From the NCBI GenBank assembly GCA_030386875.1, contig CM059556.1, positions 35,752,964 through 35,816,963 on the forward strand: a stretch of 64,000 nt of DNA, given 5' to 3'. The translations under genes were made by a program, and so were the position numbers. The stretch's first letter is position 1. Each line of letters opens with the position of its first letter. Below, one piece after another: positions 35,601 to 62,600 of the stretch. This stretch comes from Morinoia aosen. Lineage: Eukaryota > Arthropoda > Malacostraca > Amphipoda > Talitridae. Below the pieces are notes generated by a model. It saw only the letters and a program-made list of their open reading frames with translations. It was not told the DNA's origin and did not search any database.

Positions 35601-38600
35601 TTGTTGGCATGAGAAAGATACTAATGCTTGTTGGCATGAGAAAGATACTAATGCTTGTTGGCATGAGAAAGATACTAATGCTTGTTGGCATGAGAAAGAT
35701 ACTAATGCTTGTTGGCATGAGAAAGATACTAATGCTTGTTGGCATGAGAAAGATACTAATGCTTGTTGGCATGAGAAAGATACTAATGTTTGTTGGCATG
35801 AGAAAGATACTAATGTTTGTTGGCATGAGAAAGATAATAATGTTTGTTGGCATGAGAAAGATAATTATGTTTGTTGGCATGAGAAAGATACTAATGTTTG
35901 TTGGCATGAGAAAGATACTAATGTTTGTTGGCATGAGAAAGATACTAATGTTTGTTTTCATGAGAAAGATACTAATGTTTGTTGGCATGAGAAAGATACT
36001 AATGTTTGTTGGCATGAGAAAGATACTAATGTTTGTTGGCATGAGAAAGATACTAATGTTTGTTGGCATGAGAAAGATACTAATGTTTGTTGGCATGAGA
36101 AAGATACTAATGTTTGTTGGCATGAGAAAGATACTAATGTTTGTTGGCATGAGAAAGATACTAATGTTGGTTGGCATGATAGGTTCCCATGTTTGTTGAC
36201 ATGAGAGTTAAAAATGTTTGTTGTTCAGCATTCTGCAACTCTGTTTCCCCGTGATACGCACATTGCAGACCAACTGAGTGTGGCTGTAGAATTCCACGAT
36301 CGTTAAACGCCGGAGCCTAACATCGCGCTGCTGCAGCTGCTCCACAAGATCGTCCGTGATCAGGGATCACATTGCCCTCTGCATCATTCTCATTTTACCG
36401 TCTTTCTGAGAATTTCCTGTCCTAACGAGGGATTATCTGCTCGCTCTTTGACTTGATTAATGGCCCATAGACTTGGCTGCTTGCTCATGGCCCATAGACT
36501 TGACAAATTTGACGATGGATTTCGATCGGTGTGATTTTTTGCTCGTGCAAAACTTTTATCACAGACCGAACACTACGAGCTGCGGGCAGTTGAATTAGAG
36601 CAGCCATCTCCGTGTGCTATACTCGTGTTACTCTGATGAATGAAGGGAGTAAGTAGAACTTGGTTCGGGGTATTGCTACGTCAGTTCTTTTTTTGGCGAA
36701 CACGCACTTGCATTTCGAAACATTTGCCTGATTTCTGTTTGCCTCAGAGGGGACAAAGGGACTTTCTTGGTGAGCTTGGTTTATTTCTTTTCCCCAGGGT
36801 TTGATTCTTTGATTCATTTTAACGAGTTTACGTTTTAAAATTTATGTTTCATAAACTCATAGCAACCCTCATCGACAACCTCAACAAAAAATACCGAAAA
36901 AAGAAAGAAAAGCTTAGCAATAGCAAACTGCAAAACTAACATCACGAATATCTGTTCAACTCTTGGATTTTGTGCATCCATGTACAGGTGTGGCCAATGA
37001 TGCTGAGAAAAAACTTTCTTTTATTTAAAGGCTTTTTACAGAATATACCTATGGCTAATCGTTTACAGTCCTACAATGTAGCAAAATTACTTAGATGCGA
37101 GGGTAAAAAAAACAAAATTACGGGAATTTTAAATAATGCTTTCCAATTTTGATTTTCCTAAAATACGGAAAACCTTTTTGTGTTGGTTTTAAAGCTGATA
37201 CGAGTATTGGAACTGATAAAAAATCGTTTGCAAAGTGAGTGGCATGTTTACTTTCAAATATTTTGTTTAATTATAATTTTAAATTAAAAAAAATGTTTTC
37301 TTTACCAGATTCAAAATCAGTGATTCTGGAAGATATTAGTAAAAATATCATTCTTCTTCATCAGAGGGGTCTATAAAAAAGGAAATCTTTGCCAAGCACC
37401 TTGCATCATCATAAACTGTCTACAGATTGATAAAACCAACGAAACAAAATCCGTAGTGGCGAAGACAGCCCCTGGCAGGAAAAGATTGTCGTCGGTTCGT
37501 CAAGATGGGGCTTTAAGGTGCTACTCGTTACGGGAAAGGACTGCCAGCAGTTCAGAGCTTGCGCTGGTATGGGAGAGGGATGGCTTCAATGTCTCAGCGC
37601 GAAGGAACGCACTTGCTTCAAGGAGACAACGGACTAACTTCGAGGAGAGCTGCGAAGAAACCTCTTTTGACGGCGAAGAACATCAAAGACCGGCTCAATT
37701 TTTGCTGGGAGTCTTTGCATTGGACTGCGGAACAATGGGGCAAAGTCATTTTCTCCGATGGATCTCCGTTCCCCCTTCTTGCCATTGCCACCTTCGGGAA
37801 AAACCTCGTGCGACGAAGAAAAAGCGAGAGATTTACCAAGGAGTTTGTCGTTCCAACGGTCAAGCATCCTGGCACTCTCCACGTCTGGGGCTGCTTTTCA
37901 GGTAAAGGAACTGGAGCACCAACGATTTTACTCGAAAATAAAGCAATAAATTCGGCCTGGTGCGTGAAAGTCTTAAAAGATCATCTCCTTCCAATGCCGG
38001 CTGGTCAGTTTCCCGACAAAGAGGAGGTTTACCAGCATGATGGTGCTCCTTGTCATATGGCAAGAGTGGTTAAAAAATCCTTGATGATAATGGAGCGAAG
38101 ATTTTGGATCCTTGGCTTGGAAATTCGGCTGATCTGAATCCGATCGAAAATTTATGGTCGATTATCAAGAGTCGAGGGAACAAGAAGAAGCCGGCAAATT
38201 TAGCGCAACTTGGAGCTTTAATTAAAGAACAGTTGAGGTCTTTAGACCCTAATATCATTGAAAAATTAGTAAACAGCATGGCCAAAGCGCGACAAAATAG
38301 TTTTGAAGAAGCTTGGTCAACATTGCAAATATTGAGAATGATCACTTTTCAATTTTGCAGGTTATTAAAAATGATTCGCGGGTAATTTATGTTTGTATTG
38401 ATACTTTATATTTTCAGAAAGAAACCAAGAAAAAACTTTACGAGACTAAACCTTAGCTGAATGGGAAAATAGAAAAATTCGCTCATTCTAAAATCATTGG
38501 CCACACCTGTACTCCGCATTACCGTTTGGACAAGCCAGTGATATTAGCAGAACACATCTGACTGGCAACTTGGGACAATATGTGTCGCAGGAAAAACCGA

Positions 38601-41600
38601 AGACACAAGTGTACAACTAAGAACAATTTAAAAATGTATTATGACCACTTTTAACCAGCTAATCTTATTAATAGTGCAAAATTTTAGGCTTGTATGATTG
38701 AAATTGTGACGTGTGTTCCAACTAGATACGAAAATACTAAAGTACAATAAAGGTATCTTTACACTTCAATTACGGGAATAAAACCTGTAATTCACTCAAT
38801 TAACAGGATGCAAACGAGCTTCGGGAAATACTTAAGTGCAATGAAGGTTTCTCTAAACATTAATTATGAGGACGTTATTCATTCAGCCCCACAGTTAAAT
38901 TTAATTTTAACATTAATTACAAGAACGTTATCAAATTAAAGCACAGGATTCCAACGATCATGGTGAAATGCTTTAAATGCAAAATTTAAACATTAATGAC
39001 GAAGATTTCATCCATTTATCACACAGGGTGCAAGCGTGCCTGGGACCAGGTGCTTTGCTGGCCGCCCGCCCGCCCCGCGTCTCTGTCGTCCCTGCCCTGT
39101 CCCGGTCACGTCCCTGGCATGGACGCTAGAGAGGTTGGTGCTGGTCGCTTGTATTGGGGCAGTGTGTTAGTGTGTTGATGTGTGTCGAGGCAGTGTACTG
39201 ATGCGTGTTGAGGCAGTGTGATGATGTGTTGTGTGAGGCAATGGGCTGATGTGTTTTGTGAGGCAATGTGCTGATGTGTTTTGTGAGGCGATGTGCTGAT
39301 GTGTTTTGTGAGGCAATGTTCTGATGTGTTTTTTGAGGCAATGTGCTGATGTGTTTTTTGAGGCAGTGTGATTATGTGTTGTGTGAGGCAGTGTGATTAT
39401 GTGTTTTGTGAGGCAATGTGCTGATGTGTTGTGTGAGGCAGTGTGATGTGTGTTGATGTGTTGTATGAGGCAATATGTTGTGTTGTGCGAGGCAATGTGT
39501 TGATGTGTTGTGTGAGGTAGTGTGCTGATGTGTTGTGTGAGGCAATATGTTGTGTTGTGTGAGGCAATGTACTGATGTGTTGTGTGAGGCAGTGAGATAT
39601 GTGTTGAGGCAATGTGTTGATGTGTTGTGCGAGGCAATGTACTGATGTGTTTTGTGAGGCAATGTGTTGATGTGTTTTGTGAGGCAATGTGTTGATGTGT
39701 TTTGTGAGGCAATGTGTTGATGTGTTGTGCGAGGCAATGTGTTGATGTGTTGTGTGAGGCAGTGTGCTGATGTGTTGTGTGAGCCAGTGTGCTGATGTGT
39801 TGTGTGAGCCAGTGTGCTGATGTGTTGTGTGAGCCAGTATGCTGATGTGTTGTGTGAGCCAGTGTGCTGATGTGTTGTGTGAGGCAGTTTGATGTGTGTT
39901 GAGGCAATGTGTTGTGTTGGTGTGAGGCAGTGTGTTGATGTGTGTTGAGACAATGCGCTGATGTCGGGCAGTGTGATAACTGTGAAATGCCATGATTTAC
40001 TAATATTAAGTCTCACCAAGGACATGAATCCGTTTTTTTCCATATGATAAATAAAGTTATTTATGTTTTGCTTCTACTCGCCAAAGAACCTGATTCAGAG
40101 TAAGTTAAATACTGGGAGCAGTTTCCGTAGACTATTAGATGCAACCAAATTATCCACGGAAAGAACGTAGAGGTCAGTTTTGATCCTCTGAAATGGTGGC
40201 AGTGTGCTGATGTCATGCTTTTTGGGCTGTGTGATATAACTGGTAAATTGCCATGACGTGATATTATATTAGTTAATCTTGAAGGCACATATTTAAGTTA
40301 GTTGTTTATGATATGGATAATGTTTCTTGTGTTTTACTTGTTTTCGCCACTGAACTCTACGAAGACTCTTGAATGATAGTAGCAGTTTCTGTAAACTATT
40401 ACGCGCAGTCAAGTTCTTCTCAGCAAGAAAAGTAGGTAAATTTTGATAATCTTGAATGGTTCTGGTGTGCCAATGTATGGCTATGGGGACTGTATGATGA
40501 CTAGCAATGTTCGATGTATTAATAAGTCAATTCTGGCTGAGGAATGTATTTGAACATTTTTTATGGTATGATGGATAGCATTTCCTGTGTTTTGCTTGAA
40601 TTTTACGTAGGAACACAACTCGGAGTAAGGTAAATATTGGTAGCAGCTTCCGTAGACTATCACTCATAGTTTCAATTTTTCATAAAAAAAAACGTAAGGG
40701 AGATGATACGTGACGCAGAGCCGCAGCGGTACTCTGATTTTAGCTACTATGCTATAATAACCAAGTGATAATGTCTGGCTAAAATGCAATGATAGTGTAT
40801 GGTAGCGGTATCGAGGTGACAATGAATGGCATTGAAGTAAAAACTGAAACGGTTCAAGTAGACAGAATGTGTTTTCTGGTTGTAATAAACTGGTACATGA
40901 CCAGAATTGTAAATAGAACTAACAGAAAAAATATCGTTCAGTAGTAGTGAGAAATGTAATAAAACGTTTCGAAACATTTTCTTGCGATTTCAGTCCAATA
41001 ATGAAGTGAGTCACAACATTGACTCAACAGAGAAAAAATTTCACCGTCAATTTGATAGGAAGGTAGGGCATATGAAACTGGATTCGAAATAATTATGTTC
41101 CAATTCCAGTGTAGACAGGCAATTCTAGAGAGAATATAGAGTGCCATGAGGGCGATAATAATTTGAATATTGTAGTGATTGAGAAATATTAAAGAATATT
41201 ATGAAGGGAACCATCATAATACAAACATGGGGCCAAAGAGAATTCCATGACAGTTAATTAAAATATGTATTGATTGATAGGCTAGAAAAAAGTAACAAGT
41301 TTTTTCATCACTATTATACACAAATGGTTTAGCAATCTCCATTTTCTAAACCAATTTCTAAAAAAATATGTAATGCCGTGAAATTTAATGGTTGCGTCCA
41401 CTTTCGAATTTGTGAGGTAATGTCTGATATTTTGGCTTCTTACAACCTTATAATCCAAGTATTAAAGCACAGGTGGCTGATTGTAGCTATTTGTTAAAGC
41501 AGTTATGGTTGACTTAGGCTTTACATTCTATTCAGTTTGGCCACGAAACCAAACGTTTTGTTTGAAACGTTGTAATTTACGAAATCTTAGTACCAACTGT

Positions 41601-44600
41601 TAATTTTTTGAAAGTTAAAGAGTTCCGGATACTTGCATTCAATGATATTGTGATGTTGTGAATTATAGTTCATACGTATTCTGCGGTATATAAATTCAAA
41701 GTAAGTTAAATACTGGTAGTAATTTCCGTAGAGTGATTTCTGTTTTTTTATGGAGAATAGCTGTTTTGGTTTCAAAAAAACTGTGGTACACTGAAACTTT
41801 TAACTTGCTCTAGCTTGAATATGATCGTTCAATGAAATGCGAAAAAAAGTTGCCAGAAGCTGATTAAGAGTTAATGTTACCTAGATATCAAAATAATTAT
41901 TTCCTTTAGAGTATAAAATTGTTAACAAATAACACATCACTTTAAATTCTCGATAGGAGAATATTATAAAAGTGGTATTGCTTTTTATATCCGAAATAAT
42001 TGCTTCTGTCTATTGGATTGAATTTTGAAATCTGCAATAATATTATTTGGGCTAATTTTTAATGGCATTACGAGTTTGAAAAGAAAATGGTATCTCACTA
42101 TGTATTGAACATTTAGTTCGCAATTCGATCATTCGCGCACTACATAGTTTTGAGTTTCATTGCTCTAATGATACCAAACTTTTCATTTTTAATAAATTCA
42201 TGAAACGAAACTAAAAACTTCATCATTAGGAAATTTTTTTTTACATTTCTAAAAAAAATTACACATTACGATCTAAATACATTGTTTGCACACCTTAAAA
42301 ATAAAGATCAATAATAAACAAATATCAACTAGATTGATTGTGGTGGCATGAACTTCATTCACAAGTTTCTGACGAACATTTCTTTCATTTCACAATTATC
42401 ATCTGTTCTTATTCTAAAATCTTTTTTTTAAAGACCGATATTCATTGGATTTATAGACTAGTTTTATAGATGTCCAAAACGAAATAAAAAAAGGCTTATT
42501 TCACATTGATAAAAGCATGAAGATTTAGATTCGGGAAAGACCTTATTATCTCATTTGAATCTGAAGCGTAGTCCTAGACCATGCGTCGACATTATGGAAG
42601 TGAATGTTTGTATCAACTTCACGATTTGTAATTCGTTAAAATGCAATGTATTTTCCTGTTAGGCACCGTCATTATTGGATATGCATAGCCGAAGCAATGT
42701 CTCCAGGTTTCATAGTTGGAGATGTCATCTCCGATAAAGAACAGTAATTGCCTTGCAAAAAATTCACTCTGCATGATAATCTTTAAAAAATCTACTCTTT
42801 ATTCAACAACTCTTCGTCCCCGAAGGAAACTTATTTTCTGCAAGTAACTAAAGGAGAAGTTCTAGCGAATAGAAATATAAGTTCCAACTAGTATGAATCT
42901 AAATTTTTGTTGGAATATAAACGAGTAACGTCTGTTGATTTGAAATGATATTTCAAATCTGGAACAATACAATTTTCTTGCATTGTTTCACGCATGACGA
43001 GAGCGCACATATTGTTCTGATACTTGAACACTATGAAAATAAAATGGTACGAGTAATGCATACTCTGCGCCACTTTCAACCTGCAACAGAGAAATTCGAG
43101 AAAATTTGTAAATTAGAAAGCTTAAGCTGAAATTTGTTTAAGTTTGTAAAAAGCAGGATCATATAAAATACAAAAAACGCATGAGCTATGTTTCTTGCGT
43201 GAAGAATTTCTCCCATTCTATGTAAAATTGTTTGGGTACAAAAACTATCCATGATAGATGTAATATCGCTATTTTCAGCACGACTTGTGGTTTATTTAGC
43301 AGAAGCTGTAACTTCAATTCACCTAGCCGAATACCAGGCTGAAGGATAGGGAAACGCATTGTAGGACTTGTAGTATTGTACTAACTTATCGATAAATAGA
43401 CTTTCCTCAAAAGTAGCAGAGCCCGGAAGTCGAGCAAAGCCCATCCGGTGCTTGTAAATGCAAGGCGCCCAAGGCACTTCCGTCGGCTCTTCCGCCTGCG
43501 ACCTGAATGCGATAAGGTATCCGGGCCAAACGCACAACGATCTTCCGAAACTCGTAAACCTCATCCTCCGGAACTCTTATTAACACAACCAGCGTCACAC
43601 CACAACGATGCCCACTTCACTATATAACAATAGACTAATGCATTTACGATAACGAATGATTCAATACGTAATGAAACATGTTTGAAATAGGCCAATGAAT
43701 ATTTTTCACGTACAACTCGCGAGTTGTTCAGGTGTGAAACTACCTTGTGCGAAAAATAGCCAAATGTTTAAGATAACATTGATTCAATAGTCACCTCAAA
43801 AGTGAAAGGAGAGTTGATAAAATTGCAAATAAGGTAAGTAGGCAGAAAGTTCACATTAACGGTACCTTTTTTTCTTACAAGGATTTTCTCATTTCTGCAG
43901 CGGGACGCAACGCGGTGGTGCGACGAAACTGGCAAATGGGAAGAAAGCCCTCACACCAAGAACCTAGGCACATCTACTTCAAAACCACAATCATTTCGCA
44001 GAGAAACCAACTTGGCTCGCCTTTCTGACTTCAAATCATCATCCATCAGTCATGAATCTACAACTTCTAATCACCTTCACAAAATTTCATCTCCACATCC
44101 CAATAATCCGGAACGCGTAGCATTCGTTACCACTCGTTCTATGGCGTCAGGCAACTTGCTATCAACGAGAACAACGCAGTCGTTGGGTACAATGTCTTTG
44201 GAGTCGACTATCCCACCGAGTTTCAATGATGGCTGGACCAACTATACTGCGTGTCTCGCCAAACCACGAAAGCCTGCCAGAAAAGTTTCACCCTTGATAG
44301 CGGTAAGAAAGAAATCTTGAAAATATTCAATGTGATCTATAGGAAGTTTTCATTTTTGTGTACATTTTTCATCACTCTCGTAATAAGTGTGGAAACGGTA
44401 ATTCTTGTATATTGAACGTACAATGTAGGTAGATCCATGGATTCTGTTCACACGGTAGAGCTTTCAACTATACCTGTATTCACTTTTTTAATATACTTTG
44501 CATACACATGAAATGTTGAAAATTTGAATAACGTGCTAAGTACCAATAATTTCCAGTTCTTGGAAACTAAACATTTTATGCACTAATGAAAATGCCTTTA

Positions 44601-47600
44601 ATATAATTTTCTTGCATTGTTTCACGCATGGCGAGAACGCACGTCCTGTTCTTAAATTTAAACACTAGGAAGATAAAATGGTAAGAGTAATGCATACTAT
44701 TGCAAAATGTACTGCAATTAAATTAGTTTCTGATGAGTAATAAGGCAAATATTCAGCCCGGGTATGGCTTCTGACGTCCTATATAATTTCCGGAAGCTGC
44801 TAAAAGTATTGTTTATCTTCATTCGAAATGCTCAAGCCTCTCTAGCAGCACGCTACGTTCTTTTTTTGCCCTTATAATTTCATATATTACAATTTACTTC
44901 TTTATTAGGAGTTCCCAAGCTGAGAGTTAGGTAGGCCTTCTTTTTGTTGAAATGAAATGTTTCTGTTATGTTCAGGGCCATCTTTTTTTCGGTTCCCTGC
45001 AGTCCTTTTTTTCAGCACCTACATAATACTTTCATTCTTCAACTTTTACCTTGTTTCATGAGCTTCTTTTTCAACTTACTGTTTAAACCCCCCCTTTTTC
45101 ATCGGTACAGCGTTCCCTGATTTCTGCACTAATTTGTGCCTTCCTCCTTCCTCTCTTTGGAACGTCTTAGTTCTGATAGGGAGGCTTAAACAAACGTTTA
45201 ATCTATTCTCCACCCCTAATCACACGCTTAATATAGATGGAAAGGTAAAATGAAACACCAATTAGCCGAACGTATAATTTTAGAGTTGTTATTCAAGTTT
45301 GGTTCCATGAGAGACCAACGGCGTACACGCATCAAGTATAAGCCTGGATGAAAACTTAGAGTTTACCTGGGTAAAAGAAAACTTATTAAAAAATATGACA
45401 AATTCCCTTTTAATCCAGAGTGCAATATTATTCCCTTTCATCTTCTATCTTTTATTCCATTTCATTTTGACGCACAAGCACCTGTTAAGCGTACGTAATG
45501 CAGAGTACCATTGTTTTAAGTTGGATACAAATACATACTGAAGAAATTCAGAGTGTTATGTACCATGAATTTGGTTGTCCTCAGAAATGGCTGCCTCTGG
45601 TGAGCTCGATATCGCTGGTGGGCTACAGCATCTCACTCACATCTCTCGTCTTCTCCTGCGCCATCCTGGCGTCCTTCAAGTGAGTGGTCGGTGCTCCTTA
45701 GGGAATTTCATCCTTCAAGTGAGTGGTCGGTGCTCCTTAGGTGAATTCCATCCTTCAAGTCAGTTGTCGGTATTCCTTTGGGGAATTTCATCCTTCAAGT
45801 GAGTGGTCGGTATTCCTTAAGGAAATTTCCTTCCTGGTCTTGCGAGCAAAATTTTGCTTTTTTCGTATGAATGATGATAATTGCACGCAAGTGGAGTCGA
45901 AGAGTCTTCTATGTCCTCACATTTTTGGTAACTTCGCCTTTGTCTGGTCCTCTTTTCTGTCTGATCCCCTTTGATTGTCTGATCTCCTTAGATTGTCTGG
46001 TCCTCTTTGATTGTCTAGTCCTCTTTGATTGTCTAGTCCTCTTTGATTGTCTGGTCCTCTTTGATTGTCTGGTCCTCTTTGATTGTCTGGTCCTCTTTGA
46101 TTGTCTGGTCCTCTTTGATTGTCTGATCTCCTTTGATTGTGTGATCTCCTGTGATTGTCTGATCTCCTCTGATTGTCTGATCTCCTCTGATTGTCTGATC
46201 TCCTCTGATTGTCTGATCTCCTCTGATTGTCTGATCTCCTCTGATTGTCTGATCTCCTCTGATTGTCTGATCTCCTTTGATTGTCTGATCTCCTCTGATT
46301 GTCTGATCTCCTCTGATTGTCTGATCTCCTCTGATTGTCTGATCTCCTCTGATTGTCTGATCTCCTCTGATTGTCTGATCTCCTCTGATTGTCTGATCTC
46401 CTCTGATTGTCTGATCTCCTCTGATTGTCTGGTCTCCTCTGATTGTCTGGTCTCCTTTGATTGTCTGGTCTCCTTTGATTGTCTGGTCTCCTTTGATTGT
46501 CTGGTCTCCTTTGATTGTCTGGTCTCCTTTGATTGTCTGGTCTCCTTTGATTGTCTGGTCTCCTTTGATTGTCTGGTCTCCTTTGGTTGTCTGGTCTCCT
46601 TTGATTGTCTGGTCTCCTTTGATTGTCTGGTCTCCTTTGATTGTCTGGTCTCCTTTGATTGTCTGGTCTCCTTTGATTGCCTGGTCTCCTTTGATTGCCT
46701 GGTCTCCTTTGATTGCCTGGTCTCCTTTGATTGCCTGGTCTCCTTTGATTGCCTGGTCTCCTTTGATTGCCTGGTCTCCCTTGATTGCCTGGTCTCCCTT
46801 GATTGCCTGGTCTCCCTTGATTGCCTGGTCTCCTTTGATTGCCTGGTCTCCTTTGATTGCCTGGTCTCCTTTGATTGCCTGGTCTCCTTTGATTGCCTGG
46901 TCTCCTTTGATTGCCTGGTCTCCTTTGATTGCCTGGTCTCCTTTGATTGCCTGGTCTCCTTTGATTGCCTGGTCTCCTTTGATTGCCTGGTCTCCTTTGA
47001 TTGCCTGGTCTCCTTTGATTGCCTGGTCTCCTTTGAATGCCTGGTCTCCTTTGATTGCCTGGTCTCCTTTGATTGCCTGGTCTCCTTTGATTGCCTGGTC
47101 TCCTTTGATTGCCTGGTCTCCTTTGATTGCCTGGTCTCCTTTGATTGCCTGGTCTCCTTTGATTGCCTGGTCTCCTTTGATTGCCTGGTCTCCTTTGATT
47201 GCCTGGTCTCCTTTGATTGCCTGGTCTCCTTTGATTGCCTGGTCTCCTTTGATTGCCTGGTCTCCTTTGATTGCCTGGTCTCCTTTGATTGCCTGGTCTC
47301 CTTTGATTGCCTGGTCTCCTTTGATTGCCTGGTCTCTTTTGATTGCCTGGTCTCTTTTGATTGCCTGGTCTCTTTTGATTGTCTGAACTCTTTTGATTGT
47401 CTGATCTCTTTTGATTGTCTGATCTCTTTTGATTGTCTGATCTCTTTTGATTGTCTGATCTCCTCTGAGTGTCTGGTCTCCTCTGAGTGTCCGGTCTCCT
47501 CTGATTGTCTGGTCTCCTCTGATTGTCTGGTCTCCTCTGATTGTCTGGTCTCCTTTGATTGTCTGGTCTCCTTTGATTGTCTGGTCTCCTTTGATTGTCT

Positions 47601-50600
47601 GGTCTCCTTTGATTGTCTGGTCTCCTTTGATTGTCTGGTCTCCTTTGATTGTCTGGTCTCCTTTGATTGTCTGGTCTCCTTTGATTGTCTGATATCCTTT
47701 GATTGCCTGATATCTTTTGATTGCCTGATATCCTTTGATTGCCTGATATCCTTTGATTGCCTGATATCCTTTGATTGCCTGATATCCTTTGATTGCCTGA
47801 TATCCTTTGATTGCCTGATATCCTTTGATTGCCTGATATCCTTTGATTGTCTGATCCCATCAGTCAACAAGAAATTGAGCGTTAATCCTAAGTGAGTTGA
47901 TCACCCAATCATCGTAGGGGATTTGGATCATTCAGAAAAATAGAATCTCTGAATCAAAATTAAACTTGAATGCTTCTGTGCATAATTTATAATTTCTCAT
48001 CTGCTATTGGACTGTTTATTTCCGCCGTGTTGAATTATACGCGTCATGCACTCATGTCGCGTGGTAGTCGCATGGTAGTCATTTGGGGCGCGTGGTAGTC
48101 GCATGGTAGTCTTTTGGGGCGTGTGGTATTCGCATGGTAGTCTTTTGGGGCGTGTGGTAGTCACATGGTAGTCTTTTGGGGCGCGTGGTAGTCGCATGGT
48201 AGTCTTTTGGGGCGTGTGGTAGTCGCATGGTAGTTTCTTGGGGCGTGTGGTAGTCGCATGGTAGTCTTTTGGGGCGTGTGGTAGTCGCATGGTAGTCTTT
48301 TCATTTGCAGCAATGGTGGTTCCTCCACCTTTAATCATTATCCCTCCCCAAGCATCGTGAATCCTAAACCCTTTCCCCCCATCTTGAATTATCTCTCTCC
48401 CACCTTGTCCTTTTATTAATTCTTCATCCCTTTGTTGGCCCTCAAAAGATGATAGCGATTCCGTGTATTTACGTTCGTTCCAACCATCAAAGAGAGCACA
48501 CGCTTTGACGTTAAACAAACTTGTGATAAGTGAAAAATAAGTTGTCTATGGCCATTTTCGTGAAGTTTAACCGTAATTTTTTGTCAATGGAGGTTTGCCG
48601 CCGTTTTTACTGCCTTAATACTGTAATGTCCTTTAGATCGTGGCATCGAGTGCTATTCTGCATGTGTGTCAAACGATCGCAGTTCAAAATTTCTTCACTT
48701 ATTTATCCAAGACTTTTCACAGCTTCTTATTGAATTCTTAGCATAGAACGACGTGAAAAAATTTTCGATTGAATAATATCAGCCCTCTGACACACGTTGG
48801 TAAGAATAAAAAGCAAGGCGAAAATCGCTACACGTAAACTCATTTTTATTAAAAACGATGAAATAAAACTGAACGTTTCAGACTAACTATCCATCATCAG
48901 CAAGAAATCTCTGTAAAACGAAACAAAAAGAAGAAGAATTGATACACTAAAGTAGTATTTATAAAATCTAAACTTTGAAAAAATACGAACAACGGTAAAA
49001 AAATGTAAAGGAAAACTGAGCAACTGAATTAGGTGTTGGCAACATGAAGCGGGAAAGCACTTAGGGTGTCATTCAGAGCAGGTTTCATTTTGTAAATATG
49101 CAATGATTCGAGAAGGCGCAGTTCTGTTCTGTAAAAGGTACTGGCCAAGATTTTAAAATCATTTAGGGAGACAAGAACATCGCACTCTTCAGCATGAGAT
49201 CTAACAGAGGACAGTGGGGGGGACCCAAGAGGAAGACCAGTTCTGCAAATACGCCCAGCATGCTCGAAGACTCTAGTCATCAGGGTACGGCAGGTAGAAC
49301 CAACGTACCGCGATTCAAAACGTGAACAACTATATTGGTACACCAGAGACGAGCACAGTGAGGGTGGCAGTTTGTCTTTGAAACGAAAAAGATGGGATGT
49401 TAAATCCCTCATTATCAAGTTTTTCCCGCAGCTAAAAGTTCAAATGATCCTCGTGAATAATTTTACAATTGGTTCTCTTTTTCGTTTCAAAGACAAACTG
49501 CCACCCTCACTGTGCTACAGGTCGAATACTGTAGTACAGTATTACCAGTTTCTAATTCTACGACTATAACATCTTTTTCAAAATCGGTCGAGCTGCATCT
49601 ATGACTCGTTTCAAGTCCAAATTAATTCCCTCATTATTAATTTGGCACACGTGAAACGCTGCGATTTAAGCAAGCACGACGTCAATTTGAGCGTATCAGC
49701 ACGATTTTTCCACAGGGATTAAAGTCAACATTGTATGAAAGCTTCGGTTAATTTCATCACTTAATTTTTGACTTCCATGAGAAAATTGACGCACTCTGTA
49801 GATTCTGAAGCATCTGAGTTGTCCTCTGTTAATTACTCAAGATTTTTATCTAGTTCCCTTTTTTGTCAGAATAAAACCTTTCATTGATGTTCAAAGGAGT
49901 ATTTGACATTTCCATTTGCGGTGTCTTTAATAAGACAGATATCTAAACATGTAATTGCATATCACGTAGAATTTGAGTTGAATATTTGGACGAATTAGAA
50001 CCTGTTACAAATGGAGTCAATAATGAATGAGAAATTAAGATCAATTCATGTAGCATCACCCGTTTGTTCGTTGCGGACGACTAAAACATAGAACCGTAAA
50101 AACAAGCCATTATAAAAATATATATGATCACTTTTACACCTCCCGTTTTTCATTGCAGACGACTAAAATTCACTACCTTGAAAACAAGTTAGGACAAATA
50201 TAGATAAAGAACAACTTAAATAGCCATTTTTTCGTTGCACACGACTCGAGCTCAGAACCTTGCAAGCAAGAAGCAATGCGGTAATAAATAAAAATTACCA
50301 ATTTTAAATCACCCGTTTTTCATTGCAGGTTTCTTAACCTCAGTACCCTGAAAACAAGTCGGTGAAGAAATAAAGATGATAAATTAACATCACCCGTTTT
50401 TTGTTCCAGGCGGCTGAGGTGCGCCCGGAATTTGCTGCACCTTCACTTGTTTGCATCGTTCTCGCTGCGCGCTCTGGCCGTGCTTCTCAAGACCACGCTT
50501 ATTTCCCCTGTTTCTGTTGCGGCAGCCAGCACTTACGACTTGAATGAGGTGGTGTGGGCACTTACGACTTGGATGAGGTGGTGTGGGCACTTACGACTTG

Positions 50601-53600
50601 GATGAGGTGGTGTGGGCACTTACGACTTGGATGAGGTGGTGTGGGCACTTACGACTTGGATGAGGTGGTGTGGGCACTTACGACTTGGATGAGGTGGTGT
50701 GGGCACTTACGACTTGGATGAGGTGGTGTGGGCACTTACGACTTGGATGAGGTGGTGTGGGCACTTACGACTTGGATGAGGTGGTGTGGGCACTTACGAC
50801 TTGAATGAGGTGGTGTGGGCACTTACGACTTGGATGAGGTGGTGTGGGCACTTACGACTTGGATGAGGTGGTGTGGGCACTTACGACTTGAATGAGGTGG
50901 TGTGGGCACTTACGACTTGGATGAGGTGGTGTGGGCACTTACGACTTGGATGAGGTGGTGTGGGCACTTACGACTTGGATGAGGTGGTGTGGGCACTTAC
51001 GACTTGGATGAGGTGGTGTGGGCACTTACGACTTGGATGAGGTGGTGTGGGCACTTACGACTTGGATGAGGTGGTGTGGGCACTTACGACTTGGATGAGG
51101 TGGTGTGGGCGCGCTATCACGTATTTTTACCGACCAAATCATATTGTGCAGCCAAATTTTGAGTTTCGTGTTGTCTTTTCATTCGAACTTGGAAAAAATC
51201 TTGCCACTGTTAGGTTGTACGTATTCTCTTACGAGATTTTTCCAATGGACTTGAAACTCATAACCGTTATTTCTTAATGAGGCATTAGAAGAGCGGGAAA
51301 AGTTCAGACATATATTTTTTACAATTTTGAATAGTGAAGTGATTTGATATTTCATCCGTATCTACTCAACGAAATGGTACATTATGCTTAAATTCAATGA
51401 AATTCAATCACCTCATGAAATACGTGTTTATTGATTTTTTGTGAGCTATACAATTTTAATGAGCAGTTATCTTGAGTGATTGACGTCTTTTTTTTATTAG
51501 AGTTGTTTTAATGTTGAAACGTAAAATATTTTACCAAAAGAGATCTCATGGACGCGGTCCATGTATTGTTTGTATTTCCTTTTTATAAAATCTCAAATCT
51601 ATAAATAAAGTCGCGATCAGATGTCAGTTTACACATACTCGTTTGTTGAGATAGATTTTTTAAACATTGGTTCATGTTCAACTTTTTTACGTTGGTTCTC
51701 TTTTTAACATTTCGTGTGAGATTTTTCAAGAATTAATCTATATGAAGTAAACATTTTTTACTATATTGCACCTCTTTTACTGTATTGTACTCAAACCTAC
51801 ATCAAAGCGTTCGTTAAGTGTGGGATATAAATTTACATAAATTTGTAAACGTTCGCGAACGGATATACTTGTATACTTGTCATATGATCCTGATAATCAG
51901 TAATTCACCTTCGCCATTAATAATTTTAATTATTAAATAGTATCGGCTTATAGAGCTCTAGGGTATAAAGGTTTCACCACCAATTAATTAATTCCAATAA
52001 TTTTAATTAATTTTATAATCACTAAAAATTTCAATTTAATGTCGGAGCGTATTGAGGATATCGGCCAGATGCTTCACCTGAACCAATTTCCAAAATATGC
52101 GTTACAATTACATAATAATTTAGGAACGGAAAAACATTATCACCCCCCCCCCCCTTAAAGTCTGAAAAATTAATATTTCGCGGACAAATTACCAAATCGT
52201 CAAGAATTTTTCAAACGTAATAAAAAAAAAGCAGCTGCAGTTTTGAGTGCATTGTGAGAAAATCGGCCTGCTGCTATGCTTAAAATAATTCCCACTGAAT
52301 ATGTAATAATTAATACCGTTCTACAAAGAGAAGGCTATTGTTGAAAAGACTAACCAAAAATGTTTCCAGCGATTACTATGCCAAAGTAAAATATAAAAGA
52401 ATTACAAAAAAATCGGTATAACGTAGTAATATATAAAATAAGGACAATAAAAAATCGCTTCAAAGCTGTGAATTTTAAAATGATTACAACTACAAACCGG
52501 TACAACTTAGGAAAATACAAAAAAAAATGATTAAAAACAACGCAGCAAAACATAAAATAAAAATTCTGATTAAAACTGGTACAACGCAGCAAAACATAAA
52601 ATAAGCAAAGCATCGTACCGACGGCAGGAAATCAGCAGCAGCGGGTGGGTGTGCCGGGTGAAGGTGGCCGTGTGGGAGTACTTCATCATCGCTAACTACT
52701 CCTGGCTGCTGATGGAAGGTCTCTACCTCCACAACCTGATTTTCAGAGCGCTCTTCACTGACTCCTCTGCTCTCATGCCCTACATCCTGCTCGGCTGGGG
52801 TACCGTGTTTTTATATTCTGTATATTTCACGGCATGTCAAAAATGACGGGATTCAATATTTTCCTTACTAGTGTACGTCAAGAATGACGGGATTCGATAT
52901 TTTCCTAAGTTTCCAGATGTGGATGACAAACATATACGTCCATCCTAATAGTATAAGCGATAAAAATATTCTTGCACACTGGTGTACAAGAATAGTATCG
53001 TCAAAAACGATGGGATTCGATATTTTCCTTGAATAAATTTTCCAGATGCGGATGCCAAACAAATATATCCATCCTAATAGTACCTGCGATTAAAATATTT
53101 TTGCACTTGGGCACTTGTGAAAGTCGTTTCACAGATATGGTCATTAAGCATCCTTATGAGCGCCACAGAGAGATGAAAGAAGCGGCCACTAAATGTATAT
53201 GTATAAATAAACACGCCAACAGTATTATTAGGCGAGAAGATTATGATATACATCTGTTTTTCAGCTCATCTTGGAAGGTGAAATTACTTTTCATCTAAAT
53301 GAACATTGAAGTTTCAATTTATCAGAGTCTATATTCCCGCTATTGTTGCTTAAATTTATGAAGAGAATGAAATTAAATTTATATTTAGAATGAAATAAAA
53401 GTTATCTTTGACACAAAATGAAACATTGTCACAAGAACGAGCCGGGTAGATTACTCTTAAACTGCTAGCTATAAAAAATCTGTTCTTTCATCAGTAGCAA
53501 TTGTTGACATGAGTTGCAGTATCAAGGTTTGTTCATTTCACTTAGGGGATACAACTATTCTATCTGTGGGAATTATCATACCCAAATGGAAAATGTGAGG

Positions 53601-56600
53601 GCCCGAGCGAAAATTAGGTCAGCCTACATTATGTTGAATTAAAATGTTTTCTGTTTTGTTACAACCATGTTTCCTCGGCTCACTGCTGTTCTGTTTTTCA
53701 GCTACAACTGCTACATTTTTGTACTTTTAATTAGCGCTCCCAGGGGAACCATGTGTGGGCCCGAGCTAAAGGTTAGGTAGGCTTCCTTTTTGTTGTAATA
53801 AAATAGGTTTTTGTTTTGTTACGGACCATCTTTTTTCGGTTCACTGCTGTCCTGTTTTTCAGCACCTACTACTTTCTTCTTCAACTTTTTCTTGTTACAT
53901 GAACTTCTTTCCTACCTTACTGTTTCTGTGCACCTTGTGCACTGATTCCACGTTCCCTCAACTCCATACTAAATGGTGCCTTCCTTTTTCCTCTCTTGGA
54001 ACATCTTTGTCGTGGTTAAGGGAGGCTAAAACTTTCTTATATAATAATAATAATAATTTTTGTCCTTTTACAGTATCTCATGAACTTTATTCTCAACTTA
54101 TTGTTTCTATGCATCTTGTACGTAGATTCTTCGGTCCTGAACTCCATACTAAGTGGTACCTTCCTCTTTTCTCTCTTTGGAATGCCTTTCTTGCGGTCAG
54201 TAAGTCTTCAACTAACATCTAATCTAATCTACTGCCTCCATTGACACGCATGTCTAAAGTGCACCAGCCTACTCATGAGTTATATAGTATCAACATTTTC
54301 ACTGCGTTCGTTGCTACGGAGTGCACTGCGTTCAATGCAAATAATTGCACTGCGTTCAATGCAAATAATTGCACTGCGTTCAATGCAACTAATTGCACTG
54401 CGTGTTCAATGCAACTAATTGCACTGCGTGTTCAATGCAACTAATTGCACTGCGTGTTCAATGCAACTAATTGCACTGCGTGTTCAATGCAACTAATTGC
54501 ACTGCGTGTTCAATGCAACTACTTGCACTGCGTGTTCAATGCAACTACTTGCACTGCGTGTTCAATGCAACCAATTGCACTGCGTGTTCAATGCAACTAC
54601 TTGCACTGCGTGTTCAATGCAACTACTTGCACTGCGTGTTCAATGCAACCAATTGCACTGCGTGTTCAATGCAACTAATTGCACTGCGTGTTCAATGCAA
54701 CTAATTGCACTAGGTGTGCAATGCAACTAGTTGCACTGCGTGTTCAATGTAACTAGTTGCACTGCGTGTTCAATGCAACTAATTTTACTGCGTGTTCAAT
54801 GCAACTAATTTCACTGCGTGTTCAATGCAACTAATTGCACTGCGTGTTGAATGCAACTAATTGCACTGCGTGTTCAATGCAACTAATTGCACTGCGTGTT
54901 CAATGCAACTAATTGCACTGCGTCTTCAATGCAACTAATTGCACTGCGTGTTCAATGCAACTAATTGCACTGCGTGTTCAATGCAACTAATTGCACTGCG
55001 TGTTCAATGCAACTAATTGCACTGCGTGTTCAATGCAACTAATTGCACTGCGTGTTCAATGCAACTAATTGCACTGCGTGTTCAATGCAACTAATTGCAC
55101 TGCGTGTTCAATGCAACTAATTGCACTGCGTGTTCAATGCAACTAATTGCACTGCGTGTTCAATGCAACTACTTGCACTGCGTGTTCAATGCAACTACTT
55201 GCACTGCGTGTTCAATGCAACTACTTGCACTGCGTGTTCAATGCAACTACTTGCACTGCGTGTTCAATGCAGCTAATTGCACTGCGTGTTCGATGCAACG
55301 AATTCCTCTGCGTTCGTTACAACGGTGGGCACTGCGTTCAATGTAACTAATTGCACTGATCCACCAGGGATGCCGCTGATCGTGATCGTGTGCTGGTCCG
55401 TGGCTCGTGTGCTGGTGGACAACAGCCACTGCTGGCTGGTGCATTTCAGCCCTTGGCCGCACTGGATTGGTCTCCGCCTGCCGGTTGCCGTCTCTGTTTT
55501 CCTCAACCTTTTCTTCTTCGTCAATATCATTCGCGTCCTCGCCTCAAAACTGCGCTCTTCCGTCTCCAGGGACAACAGAAAGTACAAGTGAGAGTTGCCG
55601 CTAGATGTTTTGGATAAAAAAATTCAGACTGCACCAGAGAAATGCGTTTTGGGTTTTGAGTGTTCCGTTTGTTTTTCGATTGGCTGGTTATGAATGCGAA
55701 TTTATTATGCATTGTGGGTTTTATTTATCGTTCTTATGCTCTGATAATTCAAGGTTATAATAAATCTGGCAGTATTGTATAACCAGTTAGTTGTTTCTTT
55801 GATTGTTTTGAGTGACGTCGTGTGCTTTATACGATCTTCATTTCTTTCCATCAACCTGAACTTCGATTTCGAAGATCTCGTTGGTGACGAAATTCAGTGC
55901 CAGAGCAATGATTTTGAAAATATTCGTAGTTTTCCATTCGTATTCCATCATTAATATAATTCTTCATTATCTTTCAGTTTGTTAATTTTCAATGTAAAAA
56001 AACAGTACCTTCTTCTTACGGTCCTGTAGGGGAGACACAAAACACTTTTTGTTTAACAGTCAACAATACTTGCAATGTGCATACACGACAGATGAGATGT
56101 GTTAAAGTCTCACTTTCGATTGAGATAAGTGCAGCAGTAAACATCTTTTTCGGGTCACAAGCACTAGACATCTCATGAGGTACATTATGAGATTTTAGCA
56201 GCAATCTTCTTTTTTGAATCTTGGCTTCAGATAAATACGTTGATTGAATTATCTCTTTAGGGGCACAACACGTGATAAATTTGCAGATTGGACGGGTAAA
56301 TGTCTCTTTTGGGTCACGGCATGAGGTCGATACGATGATTGAATTTTTTTTTTTGGATCACAGAACCAGATTGATTAGTTGATTGAATTTACTCTTTTAG
56401 GTCACGGCATGCGATAAACTCAATTATTGAATCATCTTTTTTTGGTCACAGCATGGTATGAATTCATGAATTGAATTAACCCGTTTTTGTCACGGCTGAT
56501 ACAACCAGTTCGATACACTTTACCGTTTAAGTCACATAGTATGATAAATTCGTAGATTGCTTTTTCTCTTTTAGGGTGTGCCATATGATATTCCCTCAAA

Positions 56601-59600
56601 TTGATACACTATCTCGTTAGGGTAACGGCATAAGATAAATTCATCAGCATTCATTTGTTCCATGGCAGGAAACTGAACCGTTCAACCCTGGTGCTGTCAA
56701 AGCCTCTGGTTTATACACTGTATCGTTAGGGTAAGGGCACGAAATAGAATCTTCAGCAGTCACATATTTCATGGCAGAAAGATGAGCCGTATAACCTTAG
56801 TGCTGGAAATGCCTCATTAATACTATCGGTAGGGCCACGGCGTGTGGTAAATTCGTAGACTGGTTTTTCCCTTTTGGGTGGTGCCATATGATAGACCTGC
56901 ACACTGTATCGTTAGGGTCACTGCATAAGGTATAAGTTCTTCAGGATCCATATAATCCATGACAGGAACCTGAGCCGTTCAACTCTAGTGCTGTCGAAGC
57001 CTTATTAATACTGCATCGTTAGGGTCACGGTATTAAGTTCGTCAGCATTCATATACCCATGACAGAAAGCTGAGCCGTTCGACCCTGGTGCTGGTGCCCC
57101 TGTTCGGCATCCACTACTGCTTGCTGTGGGGCTTGTCTCTGTCGTCACACCCGCCTGTTGAGCTCACGTGGCTGCTGCTGGACCAGGTCTGCTCTTCTTT
57201 CCAGGTGGGTTGCCCAGCACCCAAAGCTCGCTTTATTATACGCGTCTTCGAGTTGCTTACGCCTTCTTTAGCTAGCGTGGTGGGCTGGACTATGCTGAAC
57301 GCTAAAAATTTCATCTCCTTGTAGTGTCGATTGAGCTTCTACTAAGCTGAGTTTTTTCTCTGATAATCATACAACCTAATGATCGTCGGTTAAACTATAT
57401 TGAAACTGAAGTTACAACTTTAACTAGTTCATGAATGGCACTATAAAGTATTATGCATACCGTTAGTAACACTACGTGATAGCTGAAAATTTTTGATTTT
57501 GGACTGCAATCTAGTTGTACCTATTAAAATTCATTCGAACGTTATCCGCACACTAGCAAATGAAAGTATCGAAGGGAGAAAATGCGCGGGTTTTAACAGT
57601 TTATTCAGAAAAGTGGTCACCAATGAATTATAACTCCAATTAAAATACCTTCATTTTCTTACGAGGAGAGGAGACTATACCTTTACGAGCTGATGTGGAC
57701 AATACTAAAGTAGGATTGGTCATTGTGAAACTTGAATTGGTCATAGTGAAACTTGAATTGGTCATTGTGAAACTAGAATTGGTCATTGTGAAACTAAACT
57801 TCGTTATTGCATGAAGTACCGAAATTTATTTTGACACCTGAACAATATGGACGCTGAAAATGTTTTTAATTGCCCCCAAACTAGAGAGCAGAAAAGTGAA
57901 TATTAAAACATTTTAAGCATATATAGCTGTAAATAGCACAGAACCTCCCGTGATTCCAGCTTCATGCAGGGTTTGATCGTTTCCGTATTCTGTTGCCTCA
58001 TTTGCAGGGTTTGATCGTTTCCGTGCTCTATTGCTTCATGAACGGCGAAGTGAAGCAGGAGCTAAAGAAGGTGTACGGCAGAGCCACGCACGAGGAGGAT
58101 TTGGGTCCTATGGGCACGTCTTACAGTACCGTCATGAGGTGAGGCTCCAATGTCAGGGAATTGAAAAACTGATAGCTTTGACTACACAATTGGAAAGTGG
58201 AAAGGCTCGAACATCAGAGCTGCTGTAACAACAGTTTTCAAGTTGAAACTCTACCATTTTTGAAACTTCTGTAGACTTGCAAAAATGGTAGGGGTTTCAA
58301 CTTGAAACTGATGTAACAGTAGCTCTGATGTGAGAATCTTTCCACTTTCTAATTGTGTAGCCAAAGCTATAGGTACTGTTTAGTTACCTCTTCTATGAAT
58401 AGGTCTTCAGGACTTTTATCTTGAGTACCAATATTGATTTGTCGGTTTTCCTACCGTCTCTGCTGTCTCTTCGCTGTTTTTTCTTTTTTTATCTGCTTTA
58501 TTTTCCTGGCGACGTTGCATACTTAAAGCATGTTGTGTAGGAACGTACCATGTGAATAGGTTCTCGTTTTCTACAATCCTTTTATGGTTCCTTTTTTTGC
58601 TAAAGAGGTTCTCTTCGCTTTGGTTAGGGTGTTTCAAATTAAATAATATGGACAATAATGATTACAAAATTTAGCAGTTTCATTCAATTCTAAAAAGTGT
58701 ATTCAAATGGAAAATCGTCTGACACATGGATTGTGTGGTATAACCTAATGAAATTTATCCTATTTATTTATTTATTTATTTATTTACATAAAAACTAGGA
58801 TTGAATGAGTCAATGAAAAGAATTTAAAAAAGGGTTGTCTTGGAAATTGTGTGAATGACCGATAATCAAATTCTGCAATTGTGTATATTATTGCGCACAC
58901 ATTTTATGGTAAACTTGAAATGAAATTCCAAAATTTCAAGAGTTATAGAAAAACCATTTGGGTGATCTTGATAAAATTCCTGCATTTAATTTTGAAGTGT
59001 ATCATGTGATTTACTCGTGCATTATATGACTAAAGTATTGCAAAAAAATTTCAACTCCCCGCAGTGAAAACAATTTTGTTGAGGTTAAGGAGGCTTTAAC
59101 TCAGCTATAATCTAATAATTTTATCAGAAAAATATAAATTCGAGGGGAATAACAGTGATCAATAGAGATATGTTTTCATTTTTCCCATACCCTAGTGAAG
59201 CCTAAACTAACCTATGAACGCATAATCTTATCGAATAAAAATTGCACAATACGAGTGGAATAATAATGACCAATAAGGGTATATTTTCATTTTCCCATCC
59301 TCTCTTGGAGCCTAGAATAAACTATAACCTTTTCGGAAGAAATTACAAAAATGTTGGTGGAATAATAGTGATTTGTGAGAATTTGTTTTTTCCCATAATC
59401 TAATGAAGCGTAAATAATCTAAAATAATTTTAGGGATAAATTACAAAATGAAAGTAGAAAAATATTGATCAATAAGGATTTGTTTTGATTTTTCCCATAC
59501 TCTTCATTATGCACTTTGTGCGTAAAATAACCCATAACCTTATCGGAAAAAAATTCCAAAATGCGGGTGAAGTAATGATTAATAAGGATATATTTTAATT

Positions 59601-62600
59601 TTTCCATGATTTAGTAGTAAAATCTAAAATAACCCAAAATAATATCGGACAAAAATTCCAAAATGCGAACGGAATACTAGAGATCAATAAAAATAATTTT
59701 TTTGTTTTACCCCCGTTCTACAGCAGGGCGAAGGCTTCTCAGATTTCGATGCACGGAAGTTCAGACCGAGCTCTTCCCTCCTCATCTCCAGGCACCGCTC
59801 CGCACACTCCGCCGCTGCTCAGCAAGGTGGTTCCACGTTGTTTTACCCAGGGGTAATAGTAGGGAAAACTCGTGCACAAGTTGCATGTCGGTGATTTGAT
59901 CTAATGTTCTATTCGGGCATTATGGGTAGATCAGATTCAAGTTGCCTGCCGGATATTTCATTGCAATGTATTCTTATGTACAAGTTGCATGGCAGACATT
60001 TCATTGCAATGTATTCTCATGTACAAGTTGCATGGCAGACATTACATTACAATGTATTCTCATGTACAAGTTGCATGGCAGACATTACATTACAATGTAT
60101 TCTCATGTACAAGTTGCATGGCAGACATTACATTACAATGTATTCTCATGTACAAGTTGCATGGCAGACATTACATTACAATGTATTCTCATGTACAAGT
60201 TGCATGGCAGACATTACATTACAATGTATTCTCATGTACAAGTTGCATGGCAAACATTTCATTGCAATGTATTTTTAGATCGTTATTGCCACCGCTAATA
60301 CTCATGTTGATGTGTTTTAAGTCCTGTAACGAGGGGACAAGTTAATGTCTAACGGTATTCTTACCGCAAAAGGAGCCAGATGTGAGCCTTTGCGATGTTC
60401 GAGACAGTTTTATACTAAATTCTTTCCTCGAAGAATTCGTGTAGATACGAGCAAATTGGTGTAGGTAAATTGGTGTAGGTAAATTGGTGTAGATAAATTG
60501 GTGTAGGTAAATTGGTGTAGGTAAATTGGTGTAGGTAAATTGGTGTAGGTAAATTGGTGTAGGTAAATTGGTGTAGGTAAATTGGTGTAGGTAAATTGGT
60601 GTAGGTAAATTGGTGTTGGTAAATTGGTGTTGGTAAATTGGTGTTGGTAAATTGGTGTAGGTAAATTGGTGTAGGCAAATCGGTGTAGGCAAATTGGTGT
60701 AGGCAAATTGGTGTAGGCAAATTGGTGTAGGCAAATTGGTGTAGGCAAATTGGTGTAGGCAAATTTGTGTAGGCAAATTGGTGTAGGCAAATTGGTGTAG
60801 GCAAATTGGTGTAGGCAAATTGGTGTAGGCAAATTGGTGTAGGCAAATTGGTGTAGGCAAATTGGTGTAGGCAAATTGGTGTAGGCAAATTGGTGTAGGC
60901 AAATTGGTGTAGGCAAATTGGTGTAGGCAAATTGGTGTAGGCAAATTGGTGTAGGCAAATTGGTGTAGGCAAATTGGTGTAGGCAAATTGGTGTAGGCAA
61001 ATTGGTGTAGGCAAATTGGTGTAGGCAAATTGGTGTAGGCAAATTGGTGTAGGCAAATTGGTGTAGGCAAATTGGTGTAGGCAAATTGGTGTAGGCAAAT
61101 TGGTGTAGGCAAATTGGTGTAGGCAAATTGGTGTAGGCAAATTGGTGTAGGCAAATTGGTGTAGGCAAATTGGTGTAGGCAAATTGGTGTAGGCAAATTG
61201 GTGTAGGCAAATTGGTGTAGGCAAATTGGTGTAGGCAAATTGGTGTAGGCAAATTGGTGTAGGCAAATTGGTGTAGGCAAATTGGTGTAGGCAAATTGGT
61301 GTAGGTAAATTGGTGTAGGTAAATTGGTGTAGGTAAATTGGTGTAGGTAAATTGGTGTAGGTAAATTGGTGTAGGTAAATTGGTGTAGGTAAATTGGTGT
61401 AGGTAAATTGGTGTAGGTAAATTGGTGTAGGTAAATTGGTGTAGGTAAATTGGTGTAGGTAAATTGGTGTAGGTAAATTGGTGTAGGTAAATTGGTGTAG
61501 GTAATTTTGTGTGGATAAACTCGTGCACCTGCATGGCTTCCTGTTAAGATTCATGGTAAGCTTTAATCTCATGTTTTTAAACCTCAGACTAATGGTTGAT
61601 TTCCGCAGTCAGTCCTGCAAGTTCTCCAGCAATGAACTAGAGTGATCCCAGGCAAACCGATACTATCTGCTAAAATACCCTGAATACAATTAGGGATATT
61701 GCGCGAAACGACAATTTGGTCTCACATGAGTAACTATAAATTAATAAATTCAATTTGTATTTTTATTTAGTCCAGTAATTCAAAATACGTTGATTGTTGA
61801 TCTCAATTTGGCATTTTTTACGTTCCCTTCGCCTTGAAGGCATATAATTTTGTATGCGAGGACCCTGGCCAGAGGTTACGTAGGACTTCTTTCTGTTGAA
61901 ATAGCATTGTTTTTTGTTTTGTTACCTCTTTTCTCTGTTCGCTGTTGCCCTGTTTTTCAACACTTTATGCTTTATTTTTCAGCTCATATCTTACTTCATA
62001 AGCTTCTTTCCGAACTTACTGTTTCTAAGTACATCGTGCATAAATTCCAGATTCTCTTACTTCTATACTAAATAGGGCATTCCTCTCTTTCGAATGCCTT
62101 CGGAAAAAATACAAGGAGAAAATACTTCGGAAGGAAAATGCGCTTAGGGAGGCTTCAACTAACATGTAATTTATTCGTGTTTTCCTCCTTCCTACCTTTG
62201 GAACACCTTTGTTGCGCTTAGGGAGGCTTAAACTAACAATCTAATCGTGCTTTCTTCCTTCCTCTCTTTGGAACACCTTTGTCGCTGCTGGGGAAGCTTT
62301 TAAATTTAAATCTCATCTAATTTAGCGTTCATTTGGCAGAACCATTCCGTGGACTTCTTCAGCCTTGGCTCCGTCCCAGAGGAGCGCGTGGAGATGCAGT
62401 TGTACGACTCAAGTGAACCTCGGTCAACAAACTTCATGAGGTTGTCCTCCCTATCGTCCATGGATCGCAGCTGCGAAAATGACGACCGAGAAATCGACGC
62501 AGTTTTGAATGAGAACGAAATGAGAAACGACTTCATCTTGGCTGAAGGAGAAATGAGCTCGAAAAAAATACATTTAATTTCGGCAACTTTTATCCCCGCT

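Follow-up and report, generated by a model that had tools for sequence, protein, structure and literature searches.

The locus described here raises the question of whether tandem repeats begin preferentially at the ends of exons, or whether some of them simply come to cover splice junctions in a genome that is rich in minisatellites. In the present study, a receptor gene was analysed in a 64-kb stretch of the amphipod Morinoia aosen (GenBank assembly GCA_030386875.1, contig CM059556.1), hereafter the window, which is C1:35752964-35816963 of the 29-contig, 1.99-Gb assembly. Ten exons on the + strand, from position 39027 to 63044 of the window, join into a spliced reading frame that stays open over 737 codons, counting the stop, and the gene product is a family-B G-protein-coupled receptor of the PTH/secretin type. 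We found that tandem copies straddle 5 of the 19 junctions of this gene, two donors and three acceptors. It is probable, in our judgement, that these arrays are mirage-type minisatellites, that is, short duplications that are tolerated on the intron side and whose starts are denser near exon ends.

The original prediction had named five arrays, at the donors of the exons for transmembrane segments (TM) 1 and 2 and at the acceptors of the TM2, TM6 and TM7 exons. All five were present when the window was examined with Tandem Repeats Finder (TRF), including relaxed penalties (2 3 5), and with a copy list. The arrays, and a motif that flanks one of them, are as follows.

45672..45829, + strand: TM1-donor array, 39-40 bp unit in four copies (the real one and three more), 8 exon bases in each
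50034..50415, + strand: TM2-acceptor array, degenerate 82-bp unit, 4.7 copies by TRF (the real one and four copies)
50529..51110, + strand: TM2-donor array, 29-bp unit, 20.1 copies with 99% matches (TRF)
56646..57093, + strand: TM6-acceptor array, four copies spaced 100-190 bp apart, 28-29 exon bases in each
57965..58039, + strand: TM7-acceptor duplication, 38-bp unit in two copies, 26-32 exon bases (TRF and copy list)
57959 and 58033 (span 57959..58040), + strand: 8-base motif GCTTCATG, at both ends of the TM7 duplication

The exon bodies are intact, the additional copies are intronic, and the frame is open when every junction uses its exon-adjacent site. The TM1 array adds decoy donors with GT at 45719, 45759 (GTCAGT) and 45799; the TM6 array has acceptor equivalents at 56669, 56778 and 56966 before the true site at 57066; and the TM7 duplication places a copy acceptor at 57970 before the true acceptor at 58008. 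That the copies carry exon bases, as had been claimed, was borne out at four junctions, with 8, 20, 28-29 and 26-32 bases, the 20 bases of the TM2-donor unit applying if the exon ends at 50548. At the TM2 acceptor the claim is weak. This array ends at the true acceptor 50410, and the TRF array reaches 6 bases into the exon, but only 1, 6, 6 and 9 exon bases align in the four copies (AG is retained in two of them).

The unit sequence differs from junction to junction. In addition, the TM1 and TM6 arrays gave one match each in the 1.99-Gb assembly, in a search that passes over simple and very common words. These two arrays are thus not a dispersed, transposon-like element with related units at many loci; for the two arrays searched, the claim that no single element has spread is upheld. 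The motif GCTTCATG occurs only twice on the + strand of the window, and a degraded third copy lies at the joint of the TM7 units. Its presence at both ends of the duplication is the trace expected if short direct repeats had mediated slippage or template switching. Across two-copy arrays, endpoint microhomology gave nothing informative beyond TM7.

Among the decoys, GT was retained in 22 of 22 donors and AG in 6 of 8 acceptors, and in a simple consensus scoring with analyst-supplied weights, two of the three TM6 decoys outscored the true site. Each of the 28 single-decoy splice choices that were tested led to a premature stop, which indicates that the receptor would be made only via the exon-adjacent copy. 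The copies are therefore best read as tolerated decoys, and actual splicing presumably runs to the exon-adjacent copy.

An independent sample of other genes was then used, since the P values of the window gene are biased by its having been picked for its odd look; the sample is the real test. Exons of class-B receptors, myosin heads and SNF (PF00209) transporters were chosen by Pfam family, blind to repeats, and splice sites were called by position, frame and consensus. The match rows used were 15 of 37, 47 of 79 and 29 of 91, being those inside the examined sequence stretches; the first of these sets additionally left out long open frames and the window's own gene. Three rows from an almost identical gene duplicate (C7:12.77 Mb) and seven rows of alternative myosin exons were dropped before the count, as were 26 junction ends whose splice call was implausible in the analyst's judgement, one of which falls in the myosin cluster left out here. 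The acceptor C16:10112341 was shifted by 34 bases manually. This left 136 junctions in 28 gene bins, a gene being defined as a 200-kb bin. The junction-copy alignment test covered only the 103 receptor and myosin junctions, and only program-flagged junctions were read by eye.

Tandem copies with exon bases were found by eye to straddle 13 of the 136 junctions (9 donors, 4 acceptors), in eight gene bins other than that of the window gene and on six contigs.

C1:51524577: acceptor and donor straddled
C1:51529615: donor straddled
C13:59227889: acceptor straddled
C18:8152077: donor straddled
C19:38142514: acceptor straddled
C9:53913532, 53913877 and 53918536: donors straddled
C2:3001472, 3003131 and 45546905: donors straddled
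C2:862618: acceptor straddled

Three further flagged exons (C15:26062227, C2:45531813 and C13:53235934) were judged unconvincing on reading. Nine junction matches at C1:35.64-35.65 Mb were alternative myosin exons matching each other, and were removed. This place (C1:35644596-35649000) holds a cluster in which one muscle-myosin exon is present in six or more alternative versions, of the mutually exclusive type. Several myosin and SNF exon matches lay in open frames of 400-1743 amino acids, far longer than the match, which may be stop-free repeat introns. A paralog of the receptor at C1:51.5 Mb carries arrays at its TM3 acceptor, TM3 donor and TM5 donor, by the analyst's reading of the junctions. 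These junctions are free of copies in the window gene, whose own five arrays lie at other junctions. Arrays at different junctions in the two genes most likely arose separately.

For the positional analysis, each array was collapsed to one unit, TRF was run at three settings with two overlap rules, and the 150-1000 bp zone of the introns was taken as the baseline. Straddling arrays numbered 8-9, where the deeper-intron density predicts 1.7-3.5 (P 0.01-0.0003; 136 junctions). Array starts per kb were 1.6-2.2 for straddling positions, 1.0-2.1 at 0-50 bp, 1.0-1.2 at 50-100 bp, 0.6-0.75 at 100-150 bp and 0.3-0.8 deeper. The ratio of straddling to deep-intron density was 2.5-4.7 (lower bounds of a gene bootstrap 0.9-1.4), and that of straddling plus 0-100 bp to deep intron was 2.2-3.4 (lower bounds 1.4-1.9). 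When the expectation was taken from all arrays per locus, the counts were 10 against 3.9, 10 against 3.5 and 8 against 2.9 (P 0.003-0.009), where two later corrections bring 10 down to 9. Since start density is raised as far as 100 bases into the intron, the excess characterises exon ends together with the adjoining 100 bp. The junction is the edge of an enriched zone and no separate target, and the bias toward exon ends is moderate in size. The predicted bias to splice junctions was therefore recovered in part: by TRF, starts are enriched at exon ends over the 136 junctions, but the enrichment takes in the first 100 intron bases and is non-significant by self-BLAST.

Among arrays of at least 85% identity, 10 lay between the junction and 100 bp against 2.0 expected, the same two corrections not being applied to this count. 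This makes a slower decay of copies with exon bases a less likely cause of the excess, and a bias in the detection of old arrays is likewise unsupported. Base composition was also considered; the guanine-plus-cytosine content predicts a ratio of 0.85-1.07, that is, no excess, and was given up as a cause.

Several results weigh against a preference for exon ends. The bootstrap interval for straddling arrays alone reaches down to 0.9 at one of the six settings. By self-BLAST, whose clustering overestimates unit lengths, the excess was smaller and non-significant (8 against 5.2 and 9 against 5.3 in other genes, and 3 against 2.0-2.2 in the window). The baseline is also depressed somewhat by exons that went unrecognised in the deep zone. 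Furthermore, by present-day coverage the junctions do not stand above introns, either in the window gene or in the other genes. In the window, 3-5 of the 19 junctions lie in repeated DNA at five settings, compared with 35-38% of intronic and 0-1.4% of exon-interior positions; two of these settings, with the final exon coordinates, gave 4 of 19 and 5 of 19. The first version of this control gave 3 of 19 junctions against 20.4% of 496 intronic controls. The coverage control counts all the amplified copies of an array and is therefore no test of where arrays start. When one seed unit was taken per array, the window gene had 5 straddling arrays against 0.9-1.1 expected (P 0.002-0.005), and 3 against 0.41 with a stricter TRF (P 0.009). 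The acceptors of the first extracellular-domain exon, TM3, TM4 and the first C-terminal exon, read by eye as ends of degenerate arrays, were dropped when the junction test lent no support (p 0.066, 0.33, 0.46 and 0.95).

On these grounds, an explanation by chance alone has to be weighed, in which the genome is rich in minisatellites, some of them cover junctions and exon ends are not special. TRF arrays make up 27.1% of the window, junction coverage is at or below that of intronic positions (in the other genes after removal of the alternative myosin exons), the self-BLAST test falls short of significance, and the window gene had been selected for its appearance. We nevertheless regard chance alone as unlikely, since the seed-based TRF count was made on genes chosen by family and the higher density over the first 100 bp keeps its lower bootstrap bounds above deep intron. 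An artefact of assembly is scarcely credible. The copies of an array are distinguished by substitutions, those at TM1, the TM2 acceptor, TM6 and TM7 also by indels or spacing, and similar arrays recur in the eight other gene bins.

It could also be argued that copies at exon ends are retained by selection for an effect on splicing, as decoy or alternative sites or through intron length. The splice dinucleotides kept in the decoys would fit this, and repeat units of human IFI6 serve as alternative donors (PMC4526556). On the other side, all the tested decoys lead to a premature stop, the paralog has its arrays elsewhere, and each junction has a different unit; retention of GT and AG may simply come from young or homogenised copies. 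We therefore hold selection to be quite improbable, and the excess may have a mutational rather than a selective source.

The anatomy of the arrays, their presence in other genes and the TRF excess near exon ends are the established part of the mirage-type reading that we prefer. Under this reading, short tandem duplications would be frequent in the genome, probably primed by chance microhomology, a route to which the TM7 motif points. Where a unit straddles an exon end, all copies but one would fall on the intron side and could be removed by splicing; being tolerated there, they might expand like any minisatellite. By TRF, the density of array starts over the junction and the first 100 intron bases was about 2-3 times that of deeper intron. 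It is possible, although rather doubtful, that some mutational process linked to the ends of exons seeds duplications preferentially within about 100 bases of junctions, and that introns lengthen from the exon edge outward through junction copies. Such seeding could arise, for example, if transcription, splicing or the nucleosomes on exons perturbed replication or repair and so led to template switching.

The original prediction held that no class of minisatellite starting at splice sites had been described, and this cannot be maintained. In the amphioxus mirage minisatellites, the unit straddles the intron/exon boundary in Adh3, the globins BflGb6 and BflGb9 and others (PMC3087553), with PGBD5 and TnC (troponin C) as further cases (PMC3902484). 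They are found at 5' and 3' boundaries, with units of 10-72 and 150-160 bp and many copies with AG/GT (PMC3087553; PMC3902484), and length instability together with undisturbed splicing is reported in amphioxus. In the same way, the receptor units hold exon and intron bases at four junctions (8, 20, 28-29 and 26 exon bases), the TM2 acceptor being weak, and the arrays occur at both intron ends, with intron-side copies and with GT/AG mostly kept. Unlike the amphioxus cases, the host is an arthropod, five junctions are involved in one gene and a bias in start density was measured, from the DNA of one assembly.

Single human cases are also on record. In CBS, the notation of the 31-bp variable number of tandem repeats, c.1444_1467+7(16_21), denotes a donor-site unit of 24 exon plus 7 intron bases in 16-21 copies (PMC2630376). 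This repeat closely resembles the TM2-donor array (29 bp, 20 copies), but is a single polymorphic human locus without a genome-wide pattern. In IFI6 (6-16), minisatellite units supply several splice donors (PMC4526556, citing Turri 1995); units lying further downstream serve as donors there, whereas a downstream donor copy in the receptor leads to a premature stop. Internal gene duplication and the gain of introns through tandem duplication (Rogers 1989; Zhuo 2007; Gao and Lynch 2009, as cited in PMC3087553) likewise copy a splice site. In contrast to these, the receptor gene has no new intron or exon and has kept the ancestral junction. From the main text of a survey of tandem repeats in Daphnia, the terms splice, exon boundary, intron-exon and exon-intron are absent (PMC3152781). 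Our literature search, mostly without subscription papers, found no arthropod mirage and no genome-wide test of start density. Thus, the class is known, and what is new, as far as seen, is the arthropod case, its frequency and the measured positional bias.

The mirage phenomenon accordingly extends to an arthropod; in its large genome, roughly one in ten of the sampled junctions is straddled. Any mutational bias of short duplications to exon ends now becomes countable, as does the way in which the spliceosome would ignore many decoys of equal or better consensus score. The arrays also bear on proposals that new introns or exons arise from such repeats.

The exon map on which the junctions rest is given below.

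39027..39133, + strand: extracellular-domain exon 1 (tblastn with arthropod homologs, open spliced frame)
43901..44302, + strand: extracellular-domain exon 2 (sequence reading, open spliced frame)
45585..45679, + strand: TM1 exon, donor GT at 45680 (homology, frame)
50410..50548, + strand: TM2 exon (homology, frame, sequence reading)
52628..52799, + strand: TM3 exon, alternative acceptor 52636 (homology, frame)
55368..55587, + strand: TM4/TM5 exon (homology, frame)
57066..57204, + strand: TM6 exon (homology, frame)
58008..58138, + strand: TM7 exon (homology, frame)
59724..59826, + strand: C-terminal exon 1 (open spliced frame)
62340..63044, + strand: C-terminal exon 2 with the stop codon (open spliced frame)

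Among solved structures, the product is related to the receptors for secretin and PTH (E to 1e-59), and its sequence relatives are arthropod receptors of the PTH/secretin type, with the top score in Penaeus (49% identity) and a tick next (49%). The highest identities, over part of the query, were in Petrolisthes (61%) and Procambarus (56%). For another gene of the assembly, that of myosin-Id, the nearest matches were contigs at 75-85% identity, followed by Limulus at 63%. By the analyst's reading of the alignments, homologs agree with eight junctions of the TM region. The TM2-TM3 junction lies in a variable loop and is not fixed by homologs; an alternative TM2 exon end at 50553 is in phase with the acceptor at 52636. 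No first exon was found further upstream of 39027. Neither extracellular-domain exon has significant junction copies (junction test p 0.066 for the acceptor and 0.455 for the donor of exon 1, and 0.993 and 0.877 for exon 2).

Other repeated sequence was noted in and around the gene. A near-palindromic inverted repeat occupies 58160-58380 of the window, just 3' of the TM7 donor. The dispersed repeat 'cttcctctctttggaac...gggaggcttaaac' has several copies in the gene's introns (44930-45200, 53560-54220 and 61880-62320). Several overlapping frames at 37324-38385 (+ strand) resemble what we take to be a decayed transposase of the Tc1/mariner type. An open reading frame at 49029-49439 (- strand) presumably resembles the GIY-YIG or Penelope-type end of an element, and a short inverted copy of its sequence lies nearby, at about 49475-49515.

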